From: Hymenochaete sp. R1
Lineage: Eukaryota; Basidiomycota; Agaricomycetes; Hymenochaetales; Hymenochaetaceae
DNA length: 64,000 nt
Assembly: GCA_019400425.1 (NCBI GenBank)
Contig: JAFREE010000031.1
Coordinates: 1 to 64,000 of the forward strand
Direction of reading: 5' to 3'
Shown here: piece by piece, positions 8,314-15,463 of the stretch
Numbering within the stretch: position 1 is the first letter of the stretch
Layout of the letters: every line of letters starts with the position of its first letter
Notes under the pieces: model-generated
The model's input: the letters and a program-made list of their open reading frames with translations, nothing else
Told to the model about the DNA's origin: nothing
The model's database searches: none
Made by a program: the position numbers and the translations under genes

Positions 8314-8546
8314 GGGTGAGGATGAGGTGACTGTATGCGCCATTGATCATGGGGATTGTCTTGGAGTGGGAGAAGTGGAGGAAAGCTTGGAATTGATGTA
8401 CTTGTTTTTTGTACAAAAAAAGAAAGAATTGGAGACCAAGCTTGTGAAGATATGTACACCTTTTGGCAAAAATATACAAAGCACTTGAAGTAGGGTTAGC
8501 GCACACATGAAGTAAAGTAACAGCTCAGCCGACAAAACCTCACTGA

Positions 8547-9102: not shown

Positions 9103-12100
9103 ATGTCAAATTCAGCCCGTCGTCAAATGGGCAAGCCTCAGTCCCAACCTCGTTCTCCCGATGCCAACTCATTTAACAAACGTAAGAAACCGCCTTTTAA
9201 ATCCAAACCACCACCATCCCCGTCCAGTTCCCCAACAAAATCTACACAGAAATCGAGCAGCACGATGGCACGCACAGACGAAGAACTCACGCTCTCCCAG
9301 CTTCTCATCGATGATAAATTCCCGCCTTTCCGCGTTCGAATCGTCCAGGAGATCAATGCTAAGCAGTCTCATATCGACTGGATCCTTTCGGCCGCTTCAG
9401 ATAACCCAAACTCCGCGACGGCGTCTCCTACAGCAAGCTTCGATAGTGTCGACACCGATTCCGACACGCTCGTCTCGCGCTCGGTCACCCCGTCCACAAT
9501 GCCACCCACCCCAACTCACAACGCAGCAGCTGGCAAACGCGTCGTCGGCGTGCAGATCGCGTTCAAGAAGGATGCCAAGCTCGCAGCTGTGTCTTTCTGC
9601 GTGGATAATCGAGTGTTGCTTATCAGTGAGGTGATGAGGACGCCGAGTCGCTCGCGAGACTTCCACCTTCGTACAAGGCTCCAGAAGGATCTGTTTGAGA
9701 AAACGAACGACTTCGCGTTCGTCGCGTTTGACGCGCACCAGGTCGCGCTTCGACTGTTCGAGGACATGCAGCTCTCGTTCTCACACTTATCTGATCTGCT
9801 TGATTTCCCCGTTCCGTTGTCGCAACCCGATGTTATCAAGACTATCAGGGAGGTCGTCGATTCCGACATTGACCTCTTCAAGGACCACATCAATGCGATA
9901 TTCCAGAAAGCGCCGTACGCCAATGAACGTGGCCAGAACGGTGCGGAAAATCTAGCACAGCAAGCCTGGCTTGCTTCGGAGATTGGGAGCCAGCTTGTTC
10001 AGAAGGGGCAGTTGGCTCAGATCGTTCCGATTAACATGATTGGATTCGACAAGACAGTAAGTGCAGCATTCTGTATTTATCGTTGAGGAACTAAACATGA
10101 CCTTGCCGCTGTAGGAAGTTCAATCACTCTCAAGGAACCTCGAAGCACTCATTATCGATGAAATGGAGAAGCCAATGAGACAGGTCGTAGAAAACCACAC
10201 CGTGACATTCAAAGGAAACAAAGCATCGGTCCACCAGCGAAACTACAATAACCGCTTTCAACGCGGCTCTCGCAATCAAGTCAGTCCTTTCAACCTTGTA
10301 TTTTTTTTTTCACTCCCGCTGATCTCATGTTTGTCCATATCCATAGGTACACGAGATCAAGACAAAAGATCATCTAAAGTTCGAAGCAAAGCTTATGAAT
10401 ATCGAAGGCAAGACGGCTTTCTTTCGTGTGGATTCCATGAAGAGCATCCTGGACAAGGATATCGAGTCCATCACGGTCAAGGGCCGTGCAGGTGCAAGCC
10501 TAGCTGAAGTAAATCAAGAAAAATTTATCCGCGACGTTCTCAAACGCGAGCGACCGATGTCCAACAACCTATGGTACAAGGTCTTGTTTCCGAAGAATGA
10601 CACTGCCTTGACCGCCTCCGCGGAACCGGACATTGCTTCATCAGTCTCTGAAGTCAGCACGAATACGAATAGCAACATAACTCAAACTGCCAGCTTAATT
10701 GCACCAAATGGCTTGGGCGCTAATATCTACTCGAGTTCGGCAACAATGGAAGATGTGGACGATGGAACAAAACAAGACGAGAGTATGCCGGTTATGGTGA
10801 CCCCCGACTCTTCGCATTCGCATTACAAAGGCTGGCCTAAAGGCAGTGCGAAATCAGGTTGGGGCTGGGGTACGATCAAGGAAGAGACGCCAGAGGACCT
10901 GCAAAACGAGTCTAAGCCAGAAGCTCAAGGCCATTCATACTTCAAAGGATGGGATAAAGACGAAAGCGGAGATGGGGAAAATGTCGATACTTGGGGTTCG
11001 GGTATCGGTGGGTGGGTTGATGCCGAGAAAGCGAAGGAAAGGAATTCGACCACTCCAAATGGTACCGGTAATGACGGCTGGGATATCGCAGCAACACCAG
11101 CTCAAGCGAATGCTCAAGAAAACGACAACGAATCACAACCAATACCAACTACAGACCCGTTCACTTCCATGAGGTCTACCAATCTCCGCAAGGATCGGTC
11201 CCAGTCAAATGCCAAATCCAAACTTATTGCAGAAGTACATGCACTTTTGTCGCTTTACTAAATTCTTGGACACTGATACGCTTGTTTTAAGATATCCTAC
11301 AATGGACCGCTCAATGACTCCCAGATGCAAGCTGTCGAGGACATGCTTAATATTAAGAAGAAAGTCACTATCGTCAAAGGTCCGCCGGGCACCGGTAAGA
11401 CGACCGTTATAGCCGCGCTTATCTCAAGCCTCCTCGAGGGTACGAAACATTGCGGCTTCATCGTCACGCAATCGAACGTCGGGTTGAAGAACATCGCCGA
11501 GAAGCTGGTCAAGGCCGACATCTCGGACTGGAAACTATTAGTTTCGAGTGACTTCATGGTCGGATGGTGAGTGTTCTCTTCAAGTTCTATCTACGCCGTC
11601 AGTAACGAGTTGGACATTCGGCTAACACGATCAACAGGCACGAACATCTTTACCAAGAGATCCCCGAATCCCGTATTGTACAATCATCAAACTTCAAATC
11701 AATCCCAACGGTCCGTTTCGTGCTTTGCACGATGTCAATGCTTTCGAACCCAAATGTCAAACGCCTCGCCCATCGGGTACCTATGCAGTACCTCATCGTC
11801 GACGAGGCCTCGCAGATATCAATGTCAAGCTACTTACCGGTCCTGTCGACTTACAGCAAGAAGCTCGACAAGATATGCTTCATTGGAGATGACCGGCAGT
11901 GTGAGTAATTTTTGTCTTCCTCGCTGATTATTCCTCGACCGGCTCATCTTCGTTTCCAGTGCCGCCTGTTCACTCCGACAAGTCCGACGTCTTTGATAGT
12001 GCATTCGAGAACTCCGCACTTATGAACTCACTCGAAGTGATCCTGCTCAATGTCCAATGTGCGTCCCTTGCTCTCTCGACTCGATTTTTATTAAGTTTTA

Positions 12101-12796
12101 TACTTTAGACCGTATGCCACCTCAGATTGGCCAGTTCATCTCCGACTCGGTCTATGATGGTGAACTCTCTTCCTCGGAGGACCATCCAATGCAGGATTCC
12201 CTCACATGTCAGTTCATTGATGTTGCAAATGGGATTGAGATATCTGAGAAAACAAGTTACAAGGTAAGTTTCCCTGTCTTATTAATTTCTTTCATTAAGT
12301 TAATAAAATATTTTCAGAATGAGAAAGAAGCGGATATAGCCATTTCTATTGCTACTATCCTATCTGGATTGGACAAATCATTCAAAATAATCACCCCTTA
12401 TCTTCCTCAGCATGATTTGCTCCAGGAGAAGCTCCAAGCTTCAGGTCTTTCATGGGAGAATACTGTCTTCACTGTTGACTCATTCCAAGGTAATGTATCT
12501 TTTCTTTTTATGCATAAACTTAAATGTATTAATGGTCTTTAATAGGGAATGAGGGAGACTATATCATCATCTCTACTGTGCGTACTAGGGATGTAGGATT
12601 CTTACGGGATCTAAGGAGGTCCAATGTCATGCTTACCAGAGCAAGGAGAGGAATGTATATCTGTTCTAACATGAATTTACTAAGGTCATATGGAGCTCAG
12701 GACACTCTTTTGAGCCAGATGGCTCAGGAGTGGTCTGAGAAGGAGAAGGGCATCATTGGGTGTTATGATTTGAAGAAGGAACAACTTATCAATTAG
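9103..12796 (+). CDS. UPF1/NAM7-like superfamily 1 helicase with GW/WG-rich insert, 1073 aa
   Basis: Nine exons: 9103-10056, 10115-10279, 10347-11234, 11292-11566, 11638-11900, 11960-12058, 12109-12263, 12318-12489 and 12546-12796 (3222 nt). Residues 145-250 or so resemble a DEDD-type 3'-5' exonuclease fold ([29 protein letters not shown]), but the first acidic motif is Q-I-A, so activity is doubtful. Residues 530-620 hold seven tryptophans, all in GW or WG context. The helicase core follows: [13 protein letters not shown], Walker [10 protein letters not shown], Walker B LIVDEASQ, motif [21 protein letters not shown], motif [19 protein letters not shown], and motif [15 protein letters not shown]. 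This is a complete UPF1-like helicase. The layout recalls the silencing helicases Hrr1 (fission yeast) and SAD-3 (Neurospora), which is inference. The last exons (after about 12185) have unusual base composition. The start could also be ATG 9046. Confidence 0.88.
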
Positions 12797-12810
12797 TTTT
12801 ACTGACTCTG

Positions 12811-12880
12811 TCTCTTTCTCTCTCTTCTCCCCCTCCCCTTCTCCCCCCTTTCCCCCCCTTTCCCTCTCTCATCTCTCTCT
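12811..12880. repeat. Polypyrimidine (CT) tract between convergent genes
   Basis: About 70 nt of nearly pure C and T on the plus strand, starting some 15 bp after the helicase stop codon. It is low complexity and could form triplex DNA or affect transcript ends. It lies inside the CpG-poor tract. Confidence 0.8.
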
Positions 12881-13002
12881 GTAATAGTCTCAGATAAATT
12901 GCTTTGTAGTTTGCTGTCATGCACTTGTTATCTCATAAAACAGAAAATTCAAATAAAAAGTCAAAAGTCTATTTATTAAAAACTCCTATGCATGCGTTTA
13001 CA

Positions 13003-15463
13003 TTAAAGTCTAGATCTAAATTCTTGTAATTCATTGCCTAAGGGGGTTTGAAGAGAAAGATGAAGATGTTTCATTTCAGATAGTGCTAAGAAGATTGCAT
13101 CTTTGAAAAGATCTGATGATGTCTCTGAACATGAATACTTTGACTCAATGCCAAATTTGATCATATCTGAGGCAGCAAGATCTACATAGAGACTAAGTGA
13201 GAAAGCAAATCAGGTCAAAGCAGAACTCGACTCACAGTTGATACCATAGCCATCCAGATAGGCTGCTCCGAACCTACAAAAACATGCAATTATCATAAGC
13301 CCAAACTTGTGTCAGGTTCGAGAAAAAAGAGAAGCTTGCTTACCCCGTACCCTTGAAATACTCTCCCGCACTTAACCCGCTCGTGCTTAACTTCCACTCC
13401 TGACTTCGAGCAAAGACAGGATCATTGAAGAAGGGAGATGATTCACCCTCCCGCAGGAGGAGTCGCAGACCCATAAGGTGCCGGTCGATACCTTTACCTG
13501 TAGCTGCATCTTTCGTGAGGCGTGCGTGGGTTTTGATAGCTTGGCGGAGGAGGGCAGCACGGGTTTCGTTCTGCATGGAGACAATGTCATTCTGAGTTAT
13601 TTTGCCAGACGGATAGGAATAAACGACGTACGGTGGTGTTAGGATCACACATCGCGAGAACGAAATGACGCGATTCGGTGGTGAGTGTTCGGATGGTCTC
13701 CGTTCGGCCGTGCTCGAAGAGTCGAGTAAGAGCAGTTTCGTACGTCGCGGTGAAGGTGCCACGCGTCCGATACCAGGCTAGTTGCATGGCCATTTGGATG
13801 TATGCGTCTGGGGACAGGAGAGCTAGACGAAAAAGAAAATATAAGGAGTCGGACGAATGTTATGCGAAGGAGGACAATGCACCTTTGTTCTTTATCCAAT
13901 CGTTACCGTAGTCCATAAACCAATATACATTGTCGTCAGAATCAGCGATCAATGCTCGAGCATCTCTTTCCACTCTAATCATCTCATTCTTTAGATATTC
14001 ATCGACTTCCCATTCCATGCGTCCCCAGGTCGACATTTCTTCTTCGCTATTGTCCAGATGCAGCGATACATTCAAGGGTGTTGACCATTCCGACTCTGGA
14101 GGTACGCCTTCAGCGAGCGAGTAATCCGCAACAATACTCGGAACAAGCGCATCGACTGGAGAATGTTCCCCCATGGCACCGGCCCTTCCGTTGCTCTCCA
14201 CTATTAACGAAACACCCTTGTCAAACCATCTATTGCGACCAGAGGTCCCACCGCGGACATTATGAAGGTGGGACTTCATCTCAGATGGATCAGGAGCGTT
14301 GGTATCGTAGGTGTAATTGTCGAGACAAAGAAATAGCAAGGAGTCGTGAATGATCGATATGATAGCCATGTTTGCTGATGAACGAGCCAGGAGGCCATAG
14401 TTCTGAGTAAATGGCGTGAGTATCAAGTATATTCAACTTGACAAAAAAAGTCTGTAGCTCACCTTCGCCCATTTGTTCCTTTCGTCCATAGTCAACACAC
14501 CGATGGGTTCTGCTTTCTCTCCAGCTCGCAGACGTGCGTCTGCATCCGCAGCGATACGTCGGATCCTTTTCTCGAGCGTGGATGAATTGACAGTCTGGCC
14601 TCGCAAATCACGAACTTCCATGAAATACATCCAGTCGTGGATCATGATCACGATTCTCCGCGCGTTAGCTGAGTCAGAATGACACGAACTAAGCTCATCG
14701 CAGCCTCGGACAGGTATGCGATTTACATTGAAGATTCGCGGCACAGTGTTACGCATCCAAATGCCCGTTCGAGTCGTCTCTGGGTATAATTCCTGTCTTG
14801 TCATGATGAGTCCATCAGCGAACATTCGAAAGGGTGAAGCTCGCTGACCTTTCCAGCTTATCTTTGAAATCCAACTTCCGCCCGAGAAGCCATGCAGCCC
14901 TCCGGATTTGCCATGGCGTGATACCAGCCCAAGAGGTGGGCTCTTTCGCATCTGAGGTTAACTTGTCGGGTGAGCTAGGGTCATCTTTGTACGCAAGCCA
15001 CCAGTTCGAATTGATTGGCAACGGAGCACGCCATTCGAGATATGCCTTCTTCAACCAAACGTTATCGTCCAACCAGTTGTGAGGCGATGATTTGTCGAGT
15101 TCTATAATCATGGTTCAAAATTTGGTATTGTGAGAGCCAAAGCGCAGAGGACGAACCTATGAGCCGCTCTTGGCAAATCTTCCCGATACCCTTCTCGAAC
15201 TCATCTGTCATCTGGATACGGGCTTCCATAGCTTTTTTGAAAGGTTGCCCCCCTCGAACCTCATCTTCGTATAGAAATGGTTCTATTGACGTCAGGTAGC
15301 GGTCAAGTGTGTCACGAAGGTGCGGGACAGGGAGCCGTGGTAAGCGCAGCGGTTTCGCAGAGGATATTTTTGAGCTCATGGGTCGGTCCGATAGTCCACG
15401 TCTGAGTATTTTCGATATCAAAGGATGTGAAAGGAACGGATATGGAGCTGTAGTGACGAGCAT
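13003..15463 (-). CDS. CAT2: Carnitine O-acetyltransferase, probably dual-targeted, 682 aa
   Basis: Transfers acetyl groups between CoA and carnitine so that acetyl units can leave peroxisomes and enter mitochondria. Eight exons on the minus strand: 15463-15157, 15101-14849, 14796-14463, 14402-13883, 13822-13632, 13570-13344, 13273-13236 and 13181-13003 (2049 nt). Family landmarks: [37 protein letters not shown], the catalytic region [13 protein letters not shown] followed by [13 protein letters not shown] (catalytic His about residue 378), and [12 protein letters not shown]. The product ends SRL, a type 1 peroxisomal signal. The first ATG (15463) adds 28 residues rich in basic and hydrophobic side chains ([12 protein letters not shown]); a second in-frame ATG at 15379 would omit them. 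Yeast Cat2 uses the same two-start scheme. The 3' exon lies in the CpG-poor tract. Confidence 0.92.

Follow-up and report, generated by a model that had tools for sequence, protein, structure and literature searches.

A CpG-depleted tract over the tails of two intact convergent genes in Hymenochaete sp. R1, tentatively an old and confined domain of high CpG mutability

The window analyzed here, 64,000 nucleotides of the Hymenochaete sp. R1 genome (contig JAFREE010000031.1, positions 1 to 64,000), contains two convergent genes whose tails share a tract of about 1.1 kb that has lost nearly all of its CpG dinucleotides. On the forward strand lies an SF1 (NAM7/UPF1-like) helicase gene (9103..12796), the spliced model of which is intact, with nine exons, 1073 amino acids, AAA_11 and AAA_12 domains, and a single stop at its end; its start codon is predicted as the first ATG of the model. 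On the reverse strand lies an equally intact carnitine acetyltransferase (CAT) gene (13003..15463), with eight exons, 682 amino acids, a PF00755 domain, and again a single terminal stop. A spacer of 206 bases (12797..13002) separates the two stop codons. The tract covers the end of helicase exon 7, exons 8-9, the spacer, and the last exon and last intron of the CAT gene, and at its widest fit it also reaches the penultimate CAT exon. The 1.1 kb thus take in three complete exons and a portion of a fourth along with the spacer.

A first-pass annotation of this stretch had listed four CpG in 12185-13227 (at 12331, 12581, 12605, and 12995), and our recount was exact, giving an observed/expected ratio of 0.11 compared to 1.05 for the whole window (G+C 49%). 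Its other counts were also reproduced exactly, i.e., three CpG in 12121-12180, five in 13261-13380, and G+C contents per 60 bases of 18 (12301-12360), 20 (13081-13140), 33 (11401-11460), and 34 (13681-13740). Two-rate segmentation placed the maximum-likelihood segment at 12176..13318 (1143 bases; observed/expected 0.14), which contains 6 CpG where the flanking rate predicts 77. This model exceeded a one-rate model by 48 log units, and the Poisson probability of six or fewer CpG is approximately 1e-25, uncorrected for the choice of segment. CpG density is thus less than one tenth of that in the surrounding DNA across some 1,100 bases. The earlier description of the tract as sharply bounded stands for its left edge, which has a 2-lnL (log-likelihood) range of 12150-12206 and is preceded by 200 bases with 13 CpG, with a ramp of up to 400 bases also allowed. 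It is not shown for the right edge (range 13202-13366): a gradual change over about 300 bases gives a marginally better fit there than a step, all ramp widths of 0-600 bases fall within 1.5 log units, and this edge is possibly graded.

The G+C content of third codon positions (GC3) is 0.40 in the tract, compared to 0.52 in open reading frames (ORFs) of the window, 0.58 in the same genes outside the tract, and 0.49 in one other CAT exon. Mean identity to relatives, calculated for those of 120 homologues with enough overlap, is 0.43 inside and 0.46 outside the tract for the helicase and 0.47 and 0.53, respectively, for CAT; a BLAST version of the helicase comparison gave 0.46 and 0.47 over 117 homologues. 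Outside the tract, CAT is 60-63% identical to four proteins of Hymenochaetaceae. The CpG loss is genuine, statistically extreme, local, and silent at the protein level, with CpG retained in the flanks, and the earlier statement that the frames are intact and not in simple decay is borne out by both spliced models.

We surveyed the readable DNA of this genome, 231,961 bases made up of the window and 18 further stretches, which is less than 1% of an assembly of 336 contigs and 27.8 Mb; by rare we mean absent from this 232 kb. Its three longest CpG-free gaps (390, 250, and 233 bases) all lie inside the tract. A scan of 1051 overlapping 1-kb windows covered the search loci as well; with the tract's own windows left out (window starts 11000-13400 and the overlapping loci L035 and L037), none had a CpG observed/expected ratio below 0.5 and six fell below 0.6. 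The segment score of the tract is 52, that of the runner-up in the sample about 10. By a simple rule based on open frames of at least 150 codons, the sample holds 17 convergent junctions: this locus scores 0.63 at a displaced midpoint and the other 16 score 0.81-1.29, so that none of those 16 shows comparable CpG loss. Within this sample, convergent orientation alone is hence insufficient as a cause. The first-pass annotation had allowed that such a composition might be ordinary for the 3' ends of convergent genes; in the fraction of the genome covered, it lies outside their range. Elsewhere in the window, the longest stretch without CpG measures 162 bases (8338-8500).

To characterize the loss, the 228 tract codons were compared with 7191 codons from long frames of the window using Fisher tests. 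The difference is concentrated where CpG could form. Among pyrimidine-ending codons followed by G, third-position C occurs in 0/28 cases in the tract versus 698/1362 in the window (p = 2e-9), whereas before other bases the frequencies are alike (41/91 versus 1244/2519; p = 0.46). Likewise, NCG makes up 1/20 of NCR codons in the tract versus 568/1061 in the window (p = 9e-6), whereas NNG makes up 39/78 versus 1024/2015 of the other NNR codons (p = 0.91; by gene, 3/17 in the CAT part and 36/61 in the helicase part). Arginine is encoded by CGN at 2/11 sites versus 334/473 (p = 6e-4). We also simulated sequences that keep the proteins and normal codon use under a CpG penalty, with its strength chosen near the observed loss and with two baselines. 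The helicase exons matched this model closely (GC3 count 76 versus 74 or 80; TG 36 versus 36 or 34; CA 40 versus 40 or 45), and so have lost CpG and little else. The earlier observation that third positions are mostly A or T is thereby accounted for in the helicase by CpG loss alone, with the CAT tail lower still. The spacer, with one CpG where about 5.7 are expected, is also depleted, indicating more than a codon effect; two helicase introns in the tract are uninformative on this point, since only 0.5 and 0.7 CpG are expected there (none seen).

The reading that we tentatively prefer, with a probability of roughly 40%, treats the tract as a long-standing, confined domain of high CpG mutability, probably methylated, under purifying selection. 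CpG would have been far more mutable there than elsewhere, most likely through 5-methylcytosine at CpG over many generations; deamination and further turnover would have removed CpG until codon use was CpG-free, and purifying selection would have eliminated harmful changes. A domain formed in place requires no unknown donor and suits the CpG specificity of the change in the helicase exons, and for these reasons we favor it. A former duplicate or repeat, now lost, may have drawn homology-directed methylation to the locus; alternatively, the trigger may have been a local chromatin or RNA feature of the junction. A candidate for the latter is a pure pyrimidine run of 60 bases (12811..12870 on the forward strand, purine on the CAT strand), which lies inside the tract between both stop codons; no other pure purine or pyrimidine run in the 232 kb reaches 40 bases. 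A G-quadruplex pattern on the minus strand (12829-12858) overlaps the run; such patterns are not rare, with 29 in the 232 kb. A stronger version seems to us unlikely, in which gene-tail methylation forms a stable, locus-specific CpG mutation domain on the ends of two intact genes, repeatedly renewed for very long periods in a fungus that otherwise retains CpG, and possibly anchored by the pyrimidine run. Of the earlier proposal of methylation and deamination focused on tail-to-tail transcripts presumed to overlap, long-term methylation is kept here as a possibility, the sufficiency of the tail-to-tail arrangement is not, and the expected TpG and CpA products are not in excess.

This lack of a product excess is one of several results that weigh against a domain formed in place. 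TG and CA have an observed/expected ratio of 1.08 in 12251-13250, and the tract holds no TpG or CpA excess beyond that of CpG-free codon choice; compared to plain codon use, there is a modest product excess over both genes (TG 46 versus 39 or 35; CA 57 versus 45 or 50). Direct conversion of NCG to NCA predicts that about 25-27 of the 49 NCN codons end in A, whereas 19 do and 22 end in T, a misfit with p = 0.026 under window codon use and p = 0.0009 under that of the same genes outside the tract. CpG-free codon use fits these codons better (p = 0.13, or a marginal 0.04 with the same-gene baseline). Arginine is AGA or AGG at 9/11 tract sites, as the first-pass annotation had noticed, and at three of the four arginines conserved in at least 97% of homologues; at conserved arginines outside the tract (at least 60%; nearly all in CAT), AGR is used at 5/30 (p = 0.03 for the difference). 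Since AGR cannot be reached from CGN by silent C-to-T changes, these codons and the NCN misfit together make a recent burst of deamination unlikely. The tract fits a long-settled CpG-free state, reached at this locus or elsewhere. Among the remaining CpG, arginine codons are somewhat favored over silent sites, the pattern expected from deamination, although not significantly so (p = 0.13).

Further points on the same side concern base composition, the left edge, and a second locus. The CAT tail has a GC3 count of 14 where the CpG-penalized model gives 25 or 27, an additional shift to A and T; over both genes, AT dinucleotides number 72 versus 60 or 58, and TC 61 versus 46 (53 with the other baseline). 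The two helicase introns of the tract (12264..12317, G+C 12/54, and 12490..12545, G+C 12/56, both forward-strand and both without CpG) are poorer in G+C than the 12 introns of both genes outside it (37-50% G+C, 299/720; 237/658 after CpG bases are dropped; p = 0.003). Confinement to CpG contexts consequently holds for the pooled codons and the helicase part, with an extra AT shift in the CAT tail and two of the three introns. The third, the last CAT intron (13182..13235, reverse strand), sits at the right edge with one CpG (13228) and normal G+C (23/54). Once it was counted, AT-rich introns were dropped as a general feature of the tract (p = 0.08 for all three against the outside introns, CpG bases dropped). 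In addition, the left edge is tight and falls in the middle of an exon, helicase exon 7. Finally, the tract is far more CpG-depleted than L022 (G000:C140:20001-29991), a repeat-bearing locus with a milder loss (0.44-0.99 in 500-base pieces) and a TG/CA ratio of 1.05-1.37, part of which recurs on contigs C190 and C293 at 67-71% identity. L022 itself indicates that CpG mutability probably exists in this genome; no Pfam domain was found in five of its frames, and we do not call it a transposon.

The better fit of codon choice to plain CpG avoidance than to direct deamination, conserved arginines included, is what selection against CpG itself would produce, were the DNA or its transcripts required to stay CpG-free, for example because methylation has to be avoided or because the junction serves a chromatin or RNA function. 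We regard such selection as improbable. It would have to act on 1.1 kb that hold no known element (no Rfam match above gathering scores over 11000-14500), it leaves the additional AT richness of the CAT tail unexplained, and the 16 other convergent junctions are normal. Scans of the region for repeats yielded nothing beyond a single short direct pair and some weak arrays rich in pyrimidines.

The features of repeat-induced point mutation (RIP) were also sought. C-to-T change at CpG in basidiomycete transposons, either RIP-like or linked to methylation, is described in PMC4352252 and PMC4457147, which lends some plausibility to the preferred mutable domain and also to RIP-like hypermutation of a duplicated copy. 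CpG has likewise been lost here, and this genome has matches to DNA methylase. The tract differs from the cases outlined there in its intact, stop-free genes, near-complete loss, lack of a clear TpG or CpA excess, and lack of a second copy: none of the RIP-like traits that we tested, i.e., repeated DNA, product excess, and stops or damaged frames, is found in it. A DNA search of the genome with 11900-13500 returned only the query itself, in a draft assembly from which a copy may be missing, and the remaining matches to the helicase tail have 36-51% protein identity. Two frames that still splice would hardly survive an assembly or contamination artefact, and the helicase has the same family grouping on both sides of the left edge. 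Given also the usable splice sites, the conserved arginines, and a TG/CA content no higher than CpG-free codon choice yields, we consider hypermutation of this kind, or an artefact, very improbable.

The other contender, gene conversion or introgression, ranks not far behind the domain formed in place, although it too is doubtful. Here, a piece of some 1.1 kb from the corresponding gene pair would have been copied by homologous recombination from a CpG-poor, AT-rich lineage of Hymenochaetaceae. A single event would cover the CpG loss, the AGR codons, the AT richness of two introns and of the CAT tail, the tight left edge, and the absence of similar tracts elsewhere in the 232 kb, and it explains the arginine codons and the left edge more simply than change in place does. 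A donor with the same arrangement is conceivable: the locus tags of CAT and helicase directly follow each other in Sanghuangporus sanghuang (ACEPAF_8468/8469) and Candolleomyces aberdarensis (EST38_g3021/g3022), and the two genes are seemingly on one contig in several other Agaricomycetes, though not all, so the neighborhood looks old. Against such a transfer, codon third positions outside CpG contexts are host-like, the DNA search of the genome found no second copy, and the normal G+C of the third tract intron lowered its standing. We also know of no fungus with coding CpG as low as that of the tract.

Protein comparisons place the locus within the family. The helicase has its highest identities to Coniferiporia weirii (59%) and its top bit score to Antrodiella, and in the tree it groups with Coniferiporia, Pyrrhoderma, and Sanghuangporus; CAT is closest to Phellopilus, Fomitiporia, Sanghuangporus, and Phellinidium. 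The six genera of the helicase grouping and of the CAT comparison all belong to Hymenochaetaceae. In a FastTree analysis, the helicase tract groups with Hymenochaetaceae with support of 0.98 and the remainder of the domain with support of 1.0; in a tree by another method, seven outgroups form a clade with 93% support. These groupings lend no support to a donor outside the family for the helicase part. The CAT tail tree (59 columns) resolved no placement. The earlier suggestion of a CpG-poor donor is therefore possible within Hymenochaetaceae, on weak protein evidence, and is not supported outside the family for the helicase part.

That protein evidence consists of a shift in affinity. At sites where Pyrrhoderma and Sanghuangporus weigelae differ, agreement of the host helicase (Pyrrhoderma:Sanghuangporus) changes from 46:14 outside the tract to 9:21 inside (p = 2.8e-5), with no shift when Coniferiporia is substituted for the host (36:27 and 9:10; p = 0.6), and in the tract tree the host pairs with Sanghuangporus (79% support). 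With a consensus of four Sanghuangporus sequences, a breakpoint at residue 237, the start of the tract, gives p = 0.0026, and the best of 70 trial breakpoints, residue 245-250, gives p = 0.0004. However, a single bin of 30 residues contains 9 of the 21 agreements in the tract. A similar tendency appears when three outgroups are set against host and Sanghuangporus (p = 0.049, 0.074, and 0.091), which points to unequal rates. Branch lengths differ between helicase segments, and the gene models of relatives are incomplete in the last third. Residues missing from the seven outgroups give 2:13 outside and 5:5 inside (p = 0.075), by a criterion that is stricter for Sanghuangporus, and for the part outside the tract one tree joins the host to Pyrrhoderma (0.945), whereas the tree of another method does not (50-63% support). 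The shift, strong in the first test and weaker with more sequences and outgroups, amounts to a hint.

Introgressed or converted tracts are known in fungi, and they share with this one a composition break inside a gene; here, the DNA search of the genome itself yields no donor and the protein discordance is weak. Vertebrate methylated DNA is CpG-depleted with its protein sequence kept by selection, and the tract shares that CpG loss, with the difference that a single 1.1-kb tract is affected in a window at 1.05. A further parallel for the preferred reading of a mutable domain is Rhizoctonia solani AG8, also an Agaricomycete, in which CpG-biased change within protein-coding genes is described (PMC4014442); there, heterozygous single-nucleotide polymorphisms between nuclei occur genome-wide, whereas here a single bounded tract has normal flanks. 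Searches of titles and abstract openings in the literature found no description of such a tract or of gene-tail methylation. As for enzymes, the genome has DNA methylase (PF00145) matches at three places, all partial, one of them separated by 2.2 kb from a replication-foci-domain match on contig C291 that is itself weak and partial, an arrangement expected of a DNMT1, together with 16 matches of the RNA-dependent RNA polymerase type. The presence of these enzymes says nothing about the tract locus.

Should the loss have originated at this locus, CpG methylation in fungi would be able to persist on a fixed kilobase of non-repeated genes for long enough to rewrite their codons without damage to the genes; should it have an outside source, the tract would mark recombination from a CpG-poor relative not yet known. 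The flanks serve as an internal control, and the locus therefore offers a clean test either way.

A property of the helicase family was discarded as a cause, since the other helicase loci examined contain no 1-kb window under 0.5; motif VI arginines at five other helicase loci are encoded by CGN in 9/12 cases. In a separate observation, helicase matches in both orientations lie within 2 kb of each other at G000:C325:17287-19145.

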